DNA of 36,276 nt from Bacteroidota bacterium (GTDB taxonomy: Bacteria > Bacteroidota > Bacteroidia > 2-12-FULL-35-15): contig CANJYB010000036.1 in the NCBI GenBank assembly GCA_947479085.1, forward strand, positions 1 through 36,276, given 5' to 3'. Within the stretch, counting starts at the first letter, position 1; each line of letters opens with the position of its first letter. Shown piece after piece: positions 1,627-36,145 of this stretch. A program made the translations under genes and the position numbers. Below the pieces are notes generated by a model that saw nothing but the letters and a program-made list of their open reading frames with translations, was not told where the DNA came from and made no database searches.

Positions 1627-3156
1627 ATGCAGGAAACCATTTTAATCCTTGATTTTGGGTCGCAATACACCCAACTGATAGCCCGAAGAGTCAGAGAACT
1701 CAATGTGTATTGCGAAATTCACCCCTACAATAAAATTCCTGAGATAACCGGCTTTATAAAAGGTGTAATTCTTTCCGGTAGTCCATTTTCGGTGCGCGAT
1801 GCTAATTCCCCAAATCCTGATTTGTCAGCTTTTAAAGGGAAATTGCCATTACTTGGGGTTTGCTATGGAGCTCAGTTGATGGCACAAAAGTTTGGAGGGG
1901 AAGTATTGCCTTCTCAACATAGGGAATATGGGAGGGCCGACCTTTCATTTGTAAACAAAGAAAACCTTCTTTTTAATGGAATAAGTGATAATTCGCAGGT
2001 TTGGATGAGCCATGCCGATACCATTACAAGGATTCCAGATAATTATGAAATTATCTCTTCTACAAGAGATGTAAAGTTTGCCGGTTACCAGGTAAAAGGC
2101 GAACAAAGCTATGGAATACAGTTTCACCCAGAAGTTTACCATACAACTGAAGGTAGTATTTTATTAAAAAACTTTGTGGTAACCATTTGTGGTTGTGCTC
2201 AAAGCTGGACTCCTGATTCGTTTGTGGAAACTACAATGGAAGAACTGAAACAAAAAATAGGGAATGATAAAGTAGTGTTGGGGTTGAGTGGTGGAGTGGA
2301 TTCATCAGTGGCGGCAGTATTACTGCACAAAGCCATTGGTAAAAACCTGTATTGCATATTTGTTGACAATGGTTTGCTTCGCAAAAATGAATTTGAACAG
2401 GTGTTGGATTCCTATATGCACATGGGATTGAATGTAAAAGGAGTTAATGCCAAAGACCTTTTTTATTCGGCCTTAGCCGGAGTTACTGACCCTGAAAAAA
2501 AGCGCAAAGCAATAGGAAAAGTATTTATTGACGTTTTTGATACCGAATCGAAACACATAGAAGATGTAAAGTGGCTGGCGCAGGGAACAATATACCCTGA
2601 TGTGATTGAATCCATATCGGTTAAAGGACCATCAGCCACTATTAAGTCGCATCATAATGTAGGCGGATTGCCTGATTTTATGAAACTTAAAATAGTGGAA
2701 CCTCTGAATACCTTATTTAAAGATGAAGTACGTAGGGTAGGCAGAACGCTTAAAATAGATGATGCTATATTAAACCGTCACCCTTTCCCTGGTCCAGGCC
2801 TTGCCATCAGGATACTTGGAGACATAACAGCAGAAAAGGTACGTATATTGCAGGAAGTGGATGCCATTTTTATTAATAGCCTGAAATCAGAGAACTTATA
2901 TAAAGATGTTTGGCAGGCAGGAGCTATTTTTCTTCCGGTACAATCGGTGGGGGTAATGGGAGATGAACGTACTTATGAAAACGCAGTGGCATTAAGGGCT
3001 GTAACCAGTACTGATGGTATGACTGCTGACTGGTGCCATTTGCCTTACGATTTCCTTGGCCGTGTGTCAAATGAAATAATAAATAAAGTAAAAGGAATTA
3101 ACAGGGTGGTGTATGATATTAGCTCTAAACCGCCTGCCACTATTGAGTGGGAATAA
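1627..3156 (+). CDS. guaA: GMP synthase (glutamine-hydrolysing)
   Basis: The 509-residue enzyme amidates XMP to GMP using glutamine and ATP, the last step of guanine nucleotide synthesis in the cytoplasm. The N-terminal class I glutamine amidotransferase has the nucleophile elbow GVCYGAQ (Cys79) and the FHPEV motif (His167, Glu169). The ATP-pyrophosphatase domain has the PP-loop SGGVDSS (221-227). The C-terminal dimerisation part carries [11 protein letters not shown] and ends in KPPATIEWE, as is standard for the family. Length is typical (about 510-525). The start at 1627 is supported by the amidotransferase opening directly at [17 protein letters not shown] and by the -7 element just upstream. 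The gene has its own promoter and appears complete. Confidence 0.97.
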
Positions 3157-3160
3157 AAAG

Positions 3161-3279
3161 AGTATTAAGTAAAAAGTATTAAGTACAAAGTAATAAGAAG
3201 AATGATTTCAAATAAAAGTAAAATTAATAATTTATTCAGGCATCATACTTTGTACTTTGTACTTTGTACTTTGTACTTT
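3161..3279. repeat. Heptanucleotide repeat (TACTTTG)n with inverted partner upstream
   Basis: TACTTTG is repeated in tandem five times (3246-3279, the last copy imperfect) inside the signal-peptide coding region of the following gene. Just upstream, 3161-3192 holds 14-base repeats AGTATTAAGTAAAA and AGTATTAAGTACAA, ending in AAGTACAAAGTA (3181-3192). That end is the reverse complement of two adjacent heptamers. The two arms flank the start codon at 3202 and could pair in DNA or mRNA. Confidence 0.8.
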
Positions 3280-5040
3280 CTGCTAAGTACCAATGTTTCC
3301 TTCGCACAGAAAAAAGGAAAAGAGAAGGAAATTGATAACGGGAAAAGCAAAAAGACCATTGTGGAAGAGGGTAAAAAATACTATTTGCATAAGGTAGATA
3401 AAAAACAAACCTTATTTGCAATTGCCAAAATTTACAACCTTTCCGTCAACGATATTGTTCTTGAAAACCCGGATGCAATTGACGGTATTAAACCCGGAAT
3501 GGTTTTGAAAGTTCCTTTTGAAAAACCAAAACCGAAAGAAACAGTAAAAAAAACAACAGAAGACAAAACGAAACCCAAAGAAACTACCTCCAAGCCATCT
3601 GATGTATTGGCTGCTGATACATCACAATTTATACTTGATACGGTTGAAAAGGGTCAGACACTTTATTCGTTTTCGAAACAATACGGTATTTCAATTGAGA
3701 AAATAAAAACATTGAATCCTGAAGCGGTTGATGGTTTAAGGATAGGGCAGGTACTCCGCTTTCCTTCTGATAATAAAAAGCCTTTGGTTCAGACAAAAGA
3801 AAAACCAAGAGAAAAGGAAAAACCGGCAACTGCTAAAACAGAAAAGGCTGTTGTTATTAATGAACCAGCGAATAAGACAGAATCCAAACCAATTGAAGCA
3901 GTTAAAGATACTGTTAAAGTCCCTGCCTATCCATCTATATTGAAAAGTGAATACAATATCGCTTTCTTTCTTCCTTTTCATGCGGATGAAGCCACAGCAA
4001 TAGACCTTGACAAATTATTAAAAGGGGACGAAGAACTTCCGAACAAAACAAGCCTTGCATTATCCTTTTATGAAGGAGCTTTAATTGCTATTGATTCTCT
4101 GGAAAAGCAAAAGCTGAATGCTAAAATATTTGTTTATGATATTGACGATAAAGACTCAATGAATATTGAAAAGATATTAAAGAAACCAGAACTTACCAAA
4201 ATGGATTTAATGATAGGTCCGCTGTATGGTTCCAGTTTTGTTCCTTTTTCGAAATTTGCAAAAGAGCATAATATTGCCATCGTTTCTCCGTTTATTCAGG
4301 TAAACAAAATATTATTCTCCAATCCTTATGTTTGTAAGGTGTTACCTTCAACTACTTTATTGGTAGAGCAAATGGCGCACTTTGTGGTGGATACGTTCAG
4401 CAAACAGAACATTATCCTGGTGGATAATGCCAATACCAGGGAGTCTTCTTTTTTTAATGCTTTCAAAAGTACGGCCAATAAAAGGTTGTTGGAAAAGGGA
4501 CTTACAACCTCTGATTCTGTAAAACAGGCGAGAGGATTAGGCTCAGTGGAAGCTATGTTGGTTGAAAATAAAACCAATGTAGTGGTATTACCTTCCAACA
4601 GCCAGTCCTATGTTACCGAATTTGTAAGAGGACTGAGAAGTAAGCACGAGAAATTCAAAATAGTATTATTCGGTCTTCAAAACTGGTCGAATTTTGACAA
4701 CCTCGATTTTGAATACCTAAACGATTTATCGCTCCATATTGCATCACCTAATTTTGTGGATTATGAAAACGCAGCTACTCAAAACGTAATAAAAACCTAT
4801 CGAAATAAATACAAAACAGAACCCGATATGTATGCTTACCAGGGGTTTGACATCAGCTATTACTTTATTTCGGAATTATTAAAACAAGGGACAGGTTTTC
4901 TGAAAACCATTTCCACTGATGCTTTTAAAGGAGTGGAAACAAATTACAAATTTATCCAACATCCAGCAGACAGTGGATTTGAAAACAATTTTGTTCATAT
5001 ATTAAAGTACCAGGATTATAAATTAGTGAAAGCTAATTAA
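3202..5040 (+). CDS. Secreted LysM protein with periplasmic-binding-protein-like domain
   Basis: The 612-residue protein has an N-terminal signal peptide ending near NVSFAQ (residue 36). Two LysM modules follow at about 60-106 (HKVDKKQTLFAIAKIYNLS, then VLENPDAIDGIKPGMVLKVP) and 143-188 (DTVEKGQTLYSFSKQYGIS). LysM binds the glycan strands of peptidoglycan. Lys/Thr/Glu/Pro-rich linkers lead to a domain from about residue 250 (YNIAFFLPFHADEA) to the end. Its strand-helix pattern resembles type 1 periplasmic binding proteins (leucine-binding/ABC receptor fold). A cell-wall-anchored sensor or scaffold is plausible, but no ligand can be inferred. The hydrophobic core of the signal peptide is encoded by a 7-base repeat. 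The stop is four bases before hemF, so the two are probably cotranscribed. Confidence 0.8.
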   Translation: MISNKSKINNLFRHHTLYFVLCTLYFLLSTNVSFAQKKGKEKEIDNGKSKKTIVEEGKKYYLHKVDKKQTLFAIAKIYNLSVNDIVLENPDAIDGIKPGMVLKVPFEKPKPKETVKKTTEDKTKPKETTSKPSDVLAADTSQFILDTVEKGQTLYSFSKQYGISIEKIKTLNPEAVDGLRIGQVLRFPSDNKKPLVQTKEKPREKEKPATAKTEKAVVINEPANKTESKPIEAVKDTVKVPAYPSILKSEYNIAFFLPFHADEATAIDLDKLLKGDEELPNKTSLALSFYEGALIAIDSLEKQKLNAKIFVYDIDDKDSMNIEKILKKPELTKMDLMIGPLYGSSFVPFSKFAKEHNIAIVSPFIQVNKILFSNPYVCKVLPSTTLLVEQMAHFVVDTFSKQNIILVDNANTRESSFFNAFKSTANKRLLEKGLTTSDSVKQARGLGSVEAMLVENKTNVVVLPSNSQSYVTEFVRGLRSKHEKFKIVLFGLQNWSNFDNLDFEYLNDLSLHIASPNFVDYENAATQNVIKTYRNKYKTEPDMYAYQGFDISYYFISELLKQGTGFLKTISTDAFKGVETNYKFIQHPADSGFENNFVHILKYQDYKLVKAN

Positions 5041-22545: not shown

Positions 22546-22640
22546 GTTTCTTAATAATCCTTTATAAATAGGTTTTAAGCATCATTTCGGCCGACCTCAA
22601 TGGTAAAAATATGGTCGGATTAGTGATTTTTCATGTCTTT

Positions 22641-22965
22641 AACAAGAGATTGAATGTCTTAAACAAAAGGTTGAATGTTTTAAACAGGAGATTGAATGTC
22701 TTGCACAAAAGGTTGAATGTTTTAAACACGAGATTGAATGTCTTGCACAAAAGGTTGATTGTTTTAAACAAGAGATGGAATATCTTGCACAAAAGGTTGA
22801 ATGTTTTAAACAAGAGATTGAATGTCTTGCACAAAAGGTTGAATGTTTTAAACAAAAGATTGAATGTCTTAAACAAAAGGTTGAATGTCTTGAACAAGAG
22901 ATTGAATGTCTTGCACAAAAGGTTGAATGTCTTAAACAAAAGATTCAATCTCTTGTTTAAGACAT
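22641..22965. repeat. 21-bp minisatellite, 14 tandem units ending in an inverted unit
   Basis: Fourteen contiguous 21-base units run from 22641 to 22934. Two variants, differing at recurring positions, roughly alternate (a 42-bp higher-order unit). Typical forms are AACAAGAGATTGAATGTCTT plus one base and CACAAAAGGTTGAATGTTTT plus one base. The array ends in an inverted copy, giving a 17-bp hairpin (22927-22943 with 22949-22965, loop TTCAA, one mismatch). Because 21 is a multiple of three, at least three frames stay open. Forward frames read as LNVLNKR or as coiled-coil-like heptads (QEIECLK), and a reverse frame reads FNLLFKT. No start signal or promoter singles out one as a gene. The rest of 22546-23036 holds nothing else recognisable. 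Confidence 0.9.
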
Positions 22966-31873: not shown

Positions 31874-31921
31874 ATAAAAACTGCCATTAGGACATATAGC
31901 AACGGGCATATAAAAATCTGT

Positions 31922-32131
31922 AGGGCAGTTGCCGGGTCTGGCAGAAGGGTTACAAAAATTTATATGGCAGTTGCCGGTTCCGGCAGAAGGGTTACAAAAA
32001 TTTATATGGCAGTTGCCGGAACCGGCAGAAGGGTTATAAAAATTTATATGGCAGTTGCCGGAACCGGCAGAGGGGTTATAAAAATTTATATGGCAGTTGC
32101 CAGTTCCGGAAACAGGCAAATAAAAAGCTAT
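31922..32131. repeat. 42-bp tandem repeat, five units, each with a central palindrome
   Basis: Five head-to-tail units of exactly 42 bases start at 31922, 31964, 32006, 32048 and 32090. Each carries a 6-bp inverted repeat around a two-base centre, TGCCGG-NN-CCGGCA. The centre differs (GT with a compensating wobble, TT, AA, AA) while the arms hold, and the last unit is degenerate. An AT-rich spacer (AAAATTTATATGGCAG) joins units. Forward frames read MAVAGTGRRVIKIY and reverse frames NPSAGSGNCHINFY without stops, because the unit is a multiple of three. The array fills most of the 372-base gap 31874-32245. There are no unique spacers, so it is not a CRISPR array. Confidence 0.9.
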
Positions 32132-32245: not shown

Positions 32246-34810
32246 ATGAAAAAACTACTACTTAACATCATCCTTACAGTGTGTACTTTTTACTCTTCAC
32301 TGTCTACTGCAAATGCTCAAATGTAGGAAAAACATTTCGGGCTGAATGCCTCACTTACTTATATGCCTCAGATGAGAACTGTTGCTCATAGGGCAAATGG
32401 AAATAACCTAATTTCCATTTTTCAGCAAATAAGCACCGGAAACGGAGTTACGGGTATTGCTGAAATTACCCCTCAGGGAGATACTCTTTGGTTCCGTCAG
32501 TTTAACCGTTCGGGTACTTCCAATGGTTCCTGTTTTGTTAATTTTATGAAAGAGCTCCCTAACCATACTATTTTTATGGCCGGAGGAACACACTTCTCCT
32601 CTGGTTTTTATCATTCCGCTTTCTGGCTTGCAGATTCGTTAGGTCATGTTACCGCCTATCAGCAAATGTTGTTTCCCAACAACCTTAACATTACATTAAA
32701 CGATGTGGATGTGGCCACCGATGGTTCGTTTTATTTTGCAGGTAGCCATTACGATGTTTATAGCGGTGGAGTGACCTTTTACAGCTGGACAGAGCCTGCT
32801 TATGGTAAACTGAATGCTAATCTTACACTTGCATGGGGCAAAACCTGGGGTACGGGCAACCATACTAACAGCAATCATAACTCAGGAGCGGCTTATGGTA
32901 TCAAGGTTTGCCCAGATAACAATATTGTAGTAATGGGTACCGATGCTCAATATAATAATGGTTCGGGTTTTTATGAAATAGCCAAAGTAACTCCAGGAGG
33001 AACTCAGATTTGGAAATACGAAAGAGCCATGGCAGCCAATAACTTTCCGGTGGGCATAGATGTATCTAACCATGGCGATATTTATTGGACTGCTGCTTTA
33101 AGTAATGCTTCTACTGTGTACGGCAATGCCGATGTGGTGGTACAAAAATTAAATTCCAACGGCTCATTGGCATGGAGCAAATCGTTTGGTACGGCTCAAA
33201 ACGAGAGTGTAACCAAGATACGTTTTGATGAATCAGCCAATGCAGTTCTGCTTGCCGGACAGCATTATTATAACGGCACCGAATATTCTGCCTGGTTTTC
33301 GAAAATAGATACTGCCGGAGCACTTGTGTTCAATAAGCTATTTGGCCTGCCTGCAACTTACGATGTTTTTAACGATGTCATACCAAGCGGAAGTAATTAT
33401 TTGCTTGCAGGCAATGCAGGTAACAGTGGTGCATATCTTGTTCAAACGGATAATGCAGGTACTACCAGTTGTACTGTAGTTGATTTAACTGTTCAATCGG
33501 GTAATTATGCTGCTGCATTTTCGCCCGGTGTTACTCACAGTGGCCGTACCTTTACCTTTACAGGATACACCCTCGCTTATTACGGTTACGTCTTAACACC
33601 CAGCACCAACTGTTATGCTTGCAGCAATGTGGTTCAAAACAGTATTGTTACTGCTTGCCAAAGTTATTTTGCAGGAGGGGGTGTACAAACCACATCAGGC
33701 GTATATAGCGATACGTATCCGGCTTTTGGCGGGTGCGATAGTGTAGTTACTACTAATCTTACTATACAGCAACCACCAACAGCTTCGTTTGCAGGCGCAA
33801 ATCAAAACGTTTGCACTAACTCGGCTTCTCTTACTGGGAACTCCCCTACAGTAGGCACCGGCCATTGGACATTAGTAAGTGGTACCGGAACGATTGTAAA
33901 TGCAAACAGTGCAAATACAGGAGTTAATGGGTTGGCTGTGGGTTCCAATGTATTCCAGTGGACCATCAGTAACGGAGTATGTACACCTTCCTCTTCCACA
34001 GTAACTATTACGGTGGGAAGCACCACTGCCGGCAACATCACCGCTTCGGCCTGCATCAACTATACCCTGAATGCTCAAACGTACACTTCCTCTGGCATTT
34101 ACACCCAAACGCTTACTAACAGTGTCGGCTGCGACAGTTTGCTTTCTATCAATCTCACCATTTATGCTGCAACCGGTAATAGCCTTGGTCCCGTTGCCTG
34201 CGATAGTTATACCTTGAACAGTCAAACCTATACTTCATCAGGACTCTATACCCAAGTGCTAACCAATGCCAATGGTTGCGACAGTACACTTTTAATCAAC
34301 CTTGTAATACATACTTCTCCCACAGTAACATATTCACAAAACCCTTCTCTTGTTTGCGAAAACTGGGCACCATTTGCTTTATCAGCAGGAAGCCCGGCAG
34401 GTGGTACTTATGTGGGTACAGCAATAACTACTAATGTATTTGACCCTACACAAGCAGGTGTAGGTACTTTCGGAATTCAATATACATATACCGATGTCAA
34501 TGGCTGTTCAGGTACTGATGGTTCTGCTATAACTGTAGATGCTTGTACGGGAGTAAACGAATTTGGAATGGAGGAATTAGCTATTTATCCGAACCCTTCT
34601 AATGGAGAATTCCAGATTTCAAATTTGAAATTTCAGATAGAAAGTATTGAGATAACTAACTTACTTGGGCAAACGGTTTATGAATCTGAAATCTGTAATC
34701 TGAAATCTGAAATAAGCGTGGACATCAGCAAAGAACCTAAAGGAATCTATTTTATTAACATACAAACAACCGACAGTAAGTACGTGAATAGGAAAATGCT
34801 AATTGAATAA
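32246..34810 (+). pseudogene. T9SS cargo protein gene with in-frame TAG after the signal peptide
   Basis: From the ATG at 32246 the frame encodes a signal peptide (MKKLLLNIILTVCTFYSSLS, then TANAQM). It hits TAG at 32324-32326, then continues open in the same frame (EKHFGLNASLTYMPQMRT) to 34810. Repaired, it would be 854 residues. The body has propeller-like blades and repeated ~45-residue modules (YTLNAQTYTSSGIYTQTL, CDSYTLNSQTYTSSGLYTQ) shared with the gene at 29873. It ends in a type A sorting domain (LAIYPNPSNGEF, KGIYFINIQTTDSK, NRKMLIE). The codon was probably TGG (Trp). A product restarting at 32363 would lack the export signal. A sequencing error or stop readthrough is possible. The next gene begins three bases after its stop. 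Confidence 0.8.
34612..34713. repeat. Short inverted and 14-bp direct repeats inside the sorting-domain coding region
   Basis: CAGATTTCAAATTTGAAATT (from 34613) is largely palindromic. At 34683-34713 a 14-base unit, AATCTGAAATCTG plus one base, occurs twice and starts a third time. This second block is largely complementary to the first. Both lie in the T9SS type A domain of the interrupted cargo gene. Confidence 0.65.
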
Positions 34811-34813
34811 TCA

Positions 34814-36145
34814 ATGAAAAAATTAACCCTGCTTTCACTTTTCTTCATTATCAATTGTCAATTATTAATTATCAATTGCAATGCTCAGTCGGTTTTGCAA
34901 TTTGGAGGAACGAATGCTTACGTTACTTTTGGCATAGCACCACAACTTGGGTTGCCCGAATTTACGTTGGAATGTTGGTTCAATAAACAAGGTGCAGGAG
35001 TAACTGCAAGTACAGGTACAGGTGGAGTGGTAGCCCTTCCGCTTATTGCAAAAGGAAGAGGAGAAGCCGATGGTACTACACAGGATATGAATTATTTTTT
35101 GGGAATAAATGCTTCTAATCAGTTGTGTGCCGATTTCGAAGAAATTACTCCTTCTGCCAACCCCGGACTCAATCATCCCATTGTGGGAATTACTACTATT
35201 GCTGACAATATATGGTATCACGCCTCTGCAACGTATGATGGAGCAGTTTGGAAATTGTATCTGAACGGAGTGCTGGAAAATACAGTTGCCGCAGGTGTAA
35301 TGCCTCAGAGTGGGAGTATACAACATGCGTCTATAGGGTCTGCTTTGAACAGCACAGGAGCGCCATCCGGTTATTTTTATGGAATGATTAGCGAAGCAAG
35401 GATATGGGATACTGCTCTTACTTCGTACGAAATACTTGCTAACATTAATATCCAACTTACCTATCCTTTACCACATCTTGTAAGCCACTGGGCAATGGAC
35501 GAAGGCAGTGGTACCAATATCTATAGCGGGGGCAGCGCAGTTTCAACAGGTACTATTATTGGTAATAATTATACATGGGTAAACACTACTGTTCCTTTTG
35601 ATATTAATTTATTGCCTGATAGTCCGGTGGTAGTAAACCCTGCCAACAGCGATTCGTGCCAAAGTACCAGTGTAACTCTTTCTGTAAATGCCACTGACCA
35701 AGACAATACAAGTTTAATCGTCAACTTTTACGGACGACCAAGAATACCTGCTCCTCCACCTTTTACCATCATTGGGTTGCCCGACACACAGCATTATTGT
35801 GCTTTGCTAAATGGAGGTACAAACCAAATGTATAAGGCCCAAACCAACTGGATAGTAGCTAACCGTACAGCACTCAATATTCCGTTTGTTGCCCACTTTG
35901 GCGATTGTGTACAAAATGGAGATAACGGTGGTAATGACATAGAATGGAAACGATGCGATACCGCTATGAGTATTATCGAAAATCCTGTAACCACCACTCT
36001 TGCTGATGGAATACCCTACGCAATGAATGTAGGTAATCATGACCAGTCTCCTGTGGGTAGTGCCACAGGTACTTCTACTTTTTACAATCAATACTTTGGT
36101 GTCAATCGTTTCTCTGCTCGCCCATGGTCAATGTCATTAAGTTAA
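34814..36145 (+). CDS. Truncated LamG and metallophosphoesterase protein, 3' end cut off by the element boundary
   Basis: The signal peptide ends near IINCNAQ. A LamG/concanavalin-like domain (about 26-255) has the typical FTLECWFNKQG, YHASATYDGAVWKLYLNGV and GMISEARIWDTAL segments. A linker (SVTLSVNATDQDN) leads to a calcineurin-like phosphoesterase domain from about residue 315. GLPDTQ, HFGDCVQNGDN and VGNHD supply the first metal-ligand motifs. The native sequence stops at codon 438 (36128), and the last codons and stop come from the inserted element. The missing part would include the downstream metal-binding histidines and probably a T9SS sorting domain, so the product is likely inactive and not surface-attached. 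Substrate is unknown. It starts three bases after the interrupted cargo gene. Confidence 0.8.
   Translation: MKKLTLLSLFFIINCQLLIINCNAQSVLQFGGTNAYVTFGIAPQLGLPEFTLECWFNKQGAGVTASTGTGGVVALPLIAKGRGEADGTTQDMNYFLGINASNQLCADFEEITPSANPGLNHPIVGITTIADNIWYHASATYDGAVWKLYLNGVLENTVAAGVMPQSGSIQHASIGSALNSTGAPSGYFYGMISEARIWDTALTSYEILANINIQLTYPLPHLVSHWAMDEGSGTNIYSGGSAVSTGTIIGNNYTWVNTTVPFDINLLPDSPVVVNPANSDSCQSTSVTLSVNATDQDNTSLIVNFYGRPRIPAPPPFTIIGLPDTQHYCALLNGGTNQMYKAQTNWIVANRTALNIPFVAHFGDCVQNGDNGGNDIEWKRCDTAMSIIENPVTTTLADGIPYAMNVGNHDQSPVGSATGTSTFYNQYFGVNRFSARPWSMSLS
34847..34888. repeat. 21-bp direct repeat encoding the signal-peptide core
   Basis: ATTATCAATTGTCAATTATT plus one base (34847-34867) is followed by ATTATCAATTGCAATGCTCA plus one base (34868-34888). 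The first 11 bases are identical and palindromic CAATTG words recur. It encodes the IINCQLL and IINCNAQ halves of the signal peptide. Confidence 0.65.

Follow-up and report, generated by a model that had tools for sequence, protein, structure and literature searches.

A translated heptanucleotide array in a LysM gene, one arm of an inverted repeat and probably recruited as a signal peptide

A run of TACTTTG heptanucleotides close to the 5′ end of a LysM gene is probably one arm, translated, of an inverted repeat of heptamers, of a kind recurrently recruited as signal peptide. The source is Bacteroidota bacterium (2-12-FULL-35-15; assembly GCA_947479085.1, contig CANJYB010000036.1, positions 1 to 36,276, forward strand), and these 36,276 nucleotides, the whole stretch of DNA analysed, are termed the window. 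G numbers designate genomes, G000 being the genome to which the window belongs, and L numbers designate loci. The features first needed are as follows.

1627 to 3156, forward strand: guaA (GMP synthase), the 5′ neighbour of the LysM gene.
3157 to 3197, forward strand: degenerate heptamers AAGTATT/AAGTACA, the complementary 5′ arm, following the guaA stop and preceding the LysM start codon.
3202 to 5040, forward strand: gene for a conserved, putative cell-envelope protein of 612 aa, carrying two LysM domains plus a Peripla_BP_6-like part.
3202 to 3306, forward strand: putative signal peptide, residues 1-35, with cleavage placed by eye before Q36 (...SFA, then Q).
3246 to 3279, forward strand: TACTTTG array of 4.9 copies with 100% matches (TRF), the 3′ arm of the inverted repeat and putative hydrophobic core.

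A reading of the sequence alone had pointed to a TACTTTG repeat at 3246-3279 within the LysM ORF, and the repeat is real; the five units it counted are, strictly, four full units and six bases of a fifth. The array spans codons 15-26 of ORF 3202-5040 and residues 15-28 of the protein are HTLYFVLCTLYFLL, which supports the earlier claim that the repeat encodes the hydrophobic core of a putative signal peptide, its role in export being presumptive. A basic n-region, a hydrophobic core and a small residue before the cleavage site are visible by eye at the N-terminus, as in a putative Sec signal peptide, and the Peripla_BP_6 match further on is a weak periplasmic-binding one, below threshold. The ATG at 3202, which sits between the two arms, is the sole ATG, GTG or TTG in the open frame ahead of the array. 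Chance does not account for so long a repeat: at lag 7, exact matching reaches a maximum run of 27 in the window, where lags 5, 6, 8, 9, 10 and 11 each reach 9, and in 50 block shuffles of the window the lag-7 maximum did not exceed 10. With up to 2 mismatches allowed, TACTTTGTACTTTG has 9 matches against 0.67 expected.

What had escaped the sequence-only reading is the complementary 5′ arm. The array is one half of an inverted heptamer repeat with arms at 3161-3192 and 3246-3277, whose complementarity is 84% across 32 nt, and the LysM start codon falls between them. The 5′ arm lies outside the LysM gene and therefore owes nothing to coding. When the inverted repeat is folded as DNA, z is -4.2 and none of 200 shuffles equals it. 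The inverted repeat straddles the start of the LysM gene: its 5′ arm occupies the guaA-lysM spacer, its two arms enclose the ATG and basic n-region, and the putative hydrophobic core is encoded by its 3′ arm. In the mechanism proposed, the array is a translated representative of a mainly intergenic class of 7-bp repeats, and such arrays seem time and again to have been taken up, exchanged and degraded as signal peptides, at the LysM gene and at others.

A gene search covering 59 genomes including its own (36 of the genus, 23 at class level) found a match to the LysM gene in all 59 at E <= 0.001. Matches were strong (E < 1e-30) in 34 of the 36 genus genomes, own included. Those in G018 and G022 (83% and 75% complete) were weak and resembled other LysM proteins; G023 has a gene fragment only, and some of the class-level genomes gave weak matches only. 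Thirty orthologue loci were compared, the own locus and 29 from genus relatives, with L037-L040 left out as duplicates of L008, L009, L010 and L025. All 30 have guaA directly upstream, and in the window the LysM gene is flanked by guaA and a coproporphyrinogen oxidase gene. Unit labels, assigned by eye, give a TACTTTG-type signal peptide in L007, L008, L012, L013, L015 and L032, a GTCAATT type in L009, L011 and L026, GTCTTCT followed by GTACTTC in L021, and a degenerate TCGTACT type in L033; the other 19 of the 30 are without a labelled array. Period-7 arrays of score at least 9 are present in 9 of 30 signal peptides versus 0 of 180 body segments, and period-8 matches in the signal peptides fall from 4 at that score to 0 at a score of at least 10. 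(Mono-, di- or trinucleotide-like, i.e. simple, arrays are excluded from the period-based array counts given here and below.)

The gene tree of these orthologues was built without the signal peptide. On it the minimum number of changes, gains or losses, is 4 for TACTTTG and 3 for GTCAATT. The labels cluster weakly, with 29 of 500 shuffles as low for TACTTTG and 21 of 200 for all groups, and the sister pair of L011 (GTCAATT) and L012 (TACTTTG), with support 86/64, has a neighbour, L027, that is without an array. In the 11 labelled orthologues lag-7 matching is 0.559 versus 0.27-0.33 at lags that are not multiples of 7, a figure sharing the bias that these rows had been labelled for their repeats. 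The 19 unlabelled orthologues, which are related rows, retain a lag-7 excess, with matching of 0.365 versus 0.315 in codon shuffles, none of 500 being as high; the corresponding shuffle counts are 92, 170 and 101 of 500 for lags 8, 10 and 11. Lag 17, for which no shuffles were made, is high too (0.360).

As RNA, the leader of the window's gene folds at -33.9 kcal/mol (z -5.3; none of 200 shuffles equal) with the start region within the hairpin, and a switch at the RNA level, controlling translation or termination after guaA, has this in its favour. The same is true of the RNA folds of all six TACTTTG-labelled leaders, own included, at z -2.7 to -5.3, in which the self arm scores 12-19.5 versus 6-9 in reversed controls. 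An unrelated lipoprotein gene, L207 (family f16), repeats the layout, with 5′ arm, ATG, n-region and TACTTTG core in that order by eye. However, 19 of the 30 orthologues are unlabelled and 10 of those 19 leaders have a fold z above 0, with L016, array-less and at z -2.6, the only one near the TACTTTG range. Folding is weak in the leaders of GTCAATT type (z -1.9, -0.3 and -0.8), Rfam has nothing at gathering score in the window, and in the window sequence the 3′ arm has no U run after it. On balance such a switch is unlikely as the account of the array. Its AU-rich hairpin would possibly be temperature sensitive, and a switch of this kind would be compatible with signal-peptide coding. The arm search gave no matching arm in the leaders of L021 and L033. 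Strong folding, the arm scores and the L207 layout speak also for the recruitment reading, and the weakly folding GTCAATT-type leaders, L016 and the two leaders lacking a matching arm speak against it. Ranking own against swapped arms (self ranks 2-6 in nine of the labelled leaders and 17 in L021 and L033) was uninformative because the species share the unit.

For signal-peptide recruitment, the properties of a 7-base unit are pertinent. As 7 mod 3 is 1, a heptamer array encodes a single heptapeptide whichever of the three frames is read. The TACTTTG strand is computed to give (YFVLCTL)n, hydrophobic and stop-free in every frame, and its complement (KYKVQST)n, basic, polar and also stop-free; TATTGCC, ATTGTCA, TCTTGTG and TGTCTTC translate to YCLLPIA, IVNCQLS, SCVLCLV and CLLSSVF. 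One strand being hydrophobic and stop-free and the other basic, TACTTTG arrays are therefore ready-made signal-peptide material. Opposite DNA strands tend to encode opposite hydropathy, and because of this an inverted heptamer repeat can supply the basic and hydrophobic parts together. Evolution of signal peptides is rapid, a wide range of sequences being tolerated, and the origins of new ones are seldom seen. One source seems to be repeat DNA that already carries a hydropathy pattern, with fresh, degenerate and replaced states of the array caught at one gene across the genus and at unrelated genes.

The unit itself is lineage-restricted, three perfect TACTTTG units being found class-wide in 4 of 295 genomes and 2 of 155 genera. 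With up to 1 mismatch, three units match in 7 of the 36 genus genomes (reversed control 0), and G005 has five array sites at unrelated places. Pooling the own genome (up to 2 mismatches), the genus (up to 1) and the class (exact) gives 23 distinct places, which were classed by hand. Eight are signal-peptide cores (the LysM gene in G000, G002 and G014, and L005, L067, L074, L207 and L213), three are signal-peptide n-regions (L061 GldD, L208 and L212), one is a hydrophobic segment, probably a membrane helix (L210), two are in T9SS tails (L064, L066) and one is mid-gene (L209). The remaining eight are intergenic (L004, L006, L065, L068, L069, L071, L072 and L075), two of which, L071 and L075, overlap with short ORFs of doubtful status. 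Of the 15 coding places, the 9 hydrophobic segments all have the TACTTTG strand as sense and the remaining 6 places have it as antisense; the pattern search was independent of frame. In L208 and L212 (genome G093, family f16; probably paralogues) the n-region KVQSTKYKVQG and the core TLYI(V/I)LCTSYI come from opposite heptamer strands.

Two further families were followed as the LysM family was, each of the three having been chosen because at least one member carried an array. The unit in the GDSL lipoprotein gene is TACTTTG in G000 and TATTGCC in G015 and G005; in LptE it is TACTTTG in G005, TATTGCC in G015 and G000, and of TCTTGTG type in L158, L161 and L168. Both show unit turnover like that of the LysM signal peptide. 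Arrays of score at least 9 are present in 5 of 29 GDSL signal peptides versus 0 of 174 body segments (L146, its start missing, was left out), and in 6 of 30 LptE signal peptides versus 1 of 180 body segments, the rows within each of the three families being related and the counts hence not independent. Control periods in the GDSL signal peptides gave, for period 8, 2 at a score of at least 9 and 2 at a score of at least 10, and, for period 10, 1 at a score of at least 9. A broader reading, on which our judgement is evenly divided, is that inverted heptamer repeats are a seedbed for signal peptides and that export signals of these Bacteroidota are repeatedly overwritten by new arrays, which differ from one another in sequence and agree in hydropathy. 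In it, one palindromic array would supply the whole signal peptide in L208 and L212, and the array would supply just the core in LysM, the GDSL lipoprotein, LptE, L207 and L213.

The census of arrays in G000 covers 1.236 Mb, a 28% sample made up of 60 stretches and the window. Period 7 is enriched there with 74 arrays, where periods 4, 5, 8, 10, 11 and 13 have 3-16 each and period 14 has 62; period 21 is enriched likewise. Though spacers are 17% of bases, 53 of the 74 period-7 arrays are intergenic. The units are many and diverse, and those listed differ from TAACTGA. Coding arrays comprise 5 within 105 nt of an ORF start, 4 within 240 nt of an ORF end and 12 at other ORF positions. The start-proximal five are two from the window, L115, which is likewise a clear signal peptide, and L097 and L114 in doubtful ORFs. 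The window has, beyond the LysM array, a second putative signal-peptide array.

34847 to 34878, forward strand: array of ATTATCA/ATTGTCA units in MKKLTLLSLFFIINCQLLIINCNAQS, within ORF 34814-36145, which has a Laminin_G_3 domain.

Signal-peptide-like ORFs carry an array of score at least 9 in 4 of 193 cases, the corresponding counts being 3 of 755 for the 5′ ends of other ORFs and 2 of 660 for segments from the middle of genes, and two of the four are in the chosen window. A strong genome-wide enrichment in signal peptides is rejected, the excess over other coding sequence being modest or weak, and this counts against the recruitment reading. Cyanobacterial STRR are intergenic tandem heptanucleotide repeats, and the 7-bp class, mostly intergenic, is like them.

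An alternative in which a mobile palindromic element (REP or MITE-like) was inserted across the start of the LysM gene draws on the same distribution. Inverted arms are present at several sites, a complementary arm of score at least 10 being within 200 nt of 13 of the 53 intergenic arrays (3 and 2 in the reversed and complemented controls), and one unit can be at unrelated places within one genome, as with the five sites in G005. However, a consensus across sites is lacking and the units vary widely, and insertion of such an element is improbable. The low share of intergenic arrays with an arm, 13 of 53, also counts against the recruitment reading.

Slightly lower in standing is the proposal of the sequence-only reading, a phase-variable contingency locus in which slippage in the TACTTTG run would set the LysM protein to ON at one repeat count in three and otherwise to OFF. 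Its arithmetic is sound. Gain or loss of one perfect 7-base copy breaks the frame and ends translation at 46 or 25 residues, and loss or gain of two units is computed to leave 39 or 32. Three units either way keep the frame, at 619 or 605 aa, the gain being the lengthening by seven residues that was foreseen. Also as claimed, no rescuing Met is close downstream, the next ATG being codon 100 (the in-frame GTG 54 and TTG 62 are both past the signal peptide). There is, moreover, a real precedent. In the part of PMC13001214 available, neuO of E. coli K1 (CUS-3 prophage) is described as phase-variable through a heptanucleotide, AAGACTC, in its 5′ coding region, being ON when the repeat count is divisible by 3, with 3-53 copies, 20 the commonest, and 42 of 64 genomes OFF. 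The LysM array shares with neuO, as there described, a heptamer tandem repeat in 5′ coding sequence and the need for the right count remainder to give full-length protein.

With frequent slippage switching, OFF frames would be expected, as in neuO. However, among signal-peptide-region arrays of score at least 8 in the three families, 23 of 24 are open in the frame of the body with a start codon upstream, these 24 being from related rows rather than independent draws and including weak arrays; the remaining one, L028, begins 5′ of its open frame. A search for OFF frames among the 24, between species with one genome for each species as in all copy-number and frame comparisons, found none. Array length is shared by the three species G000, G005 and G014, the stretch from ATG to array end aligning without indels between G000 and each of the other two. 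The strong matches in 34 of 36 genus genomes, the mostly substituted units of relatives (by eye) and, less clearly, the 4.9 copies here, a number inside the neuO range of 3-53, also count against it, and neuO as described differs in copy number, in frames, in the conservation of the gene and in having no counterpart to an inverted repeat that codes a putative signal peptide. Phase variation as the main reading is dropped on frames, constant length and wide conservation of the gene, and has become quite improbable. The repeat is most likely not a dedicated on/off switch; occasional or rare switching within a species is possible. Finding within an open frame a repeat whose unit is not a triplet should not, by itself, be taken as evidence of phase variation. 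Recruitment as a signal peptide, instead of switching, would then explain the array, and its peptide presumably works in export.

Chance low-complexity coding of a hydrophobic stretch is scarcely credible, for though signal peptides are biased in composition and their autocorrelation is raised at every tested lag, 4 to 14, the lag-7 run of 27 versus 9, the complementary arm outside the gene, the period controls and the 0.559 versus 0.27-0.33 of the labelled orthologues (rows labelled for repeats) count against it.

Several known systems invite comparison with recruitment of heptamer arrays as signal peptides. TAACTGA heptamer direct repeats occur in Beggiatoaceae, Cyanobacteria and some Bacteroidetes and, in the portion of PMC4679880 available, are likewise tandem heptamer arrays, often intergenic and immediately 5′ of start codons, with strand-dependent coding. 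That system has a single fixed unit with stops in its forward strand, whereas here units are many, both TACTTTG strands are open and the arrays are translated as putative signal peptides, a use of TAACTGA repeats that the same portion does not describe. Set beside what characterizes TAACTGA-like or STRR repeats, the class here agrees in its enrichment for period 7 and mostly intergenic location, has a unit other than TAACTGA, and the LysM array is coding. Heptamers are the commonest class of long simple sequence repeats in most genomes according to Mrazek et al. 2007, as cited in that portion of PMC4679880; the 7-nt bias is common to both, slippage was proposed there, and recruitment into targeting signals does not feature in the work as so cited. 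In archaeal Borg elements tandem repeats also become new protein segments (PMC9879509, in the part available), those elements being extrachromosomal and the segments disordered regions, unlike the chromosomal heptamers and signal peptides here. Among the open-access matches listed, no title was recognised as concerning signal peptides built of heptamer repeats.

Heptamers are also encountered at the other end of proteins, and again the window has an instance.

34608 to 34713, forward strand: heptamers AATTTGA/AATCTGA in a T9SS type A sorting domain, within ORF 32363-34810.

Three proteins unrelated to one another, those of the window, L064 and L066, have heptamers at similar places within their T9SS type A sorting domains. 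The 4.28-Mb G000 has at least 150 such domains (150 of 341 candidates scored). A special link was considered and set aside: within the sampled stretches of G000, 1 of 40 tails has an array, namely the window's own, and the association is therefore not general. Longer repeats form a separate set of observations. At a score of at least 12, a 436-kb sample has 45 arrays of period 21 versus 14 of period 7. Long degenerate arrays of periods 21 and 42, with many units and in spacers or doubtful ORFs, are at 22633-22955 and 31909-32109 of the window, and others are at L058 3781-4300, L047 12629-12906, L043 7719-7840 and L048 10635-10819.
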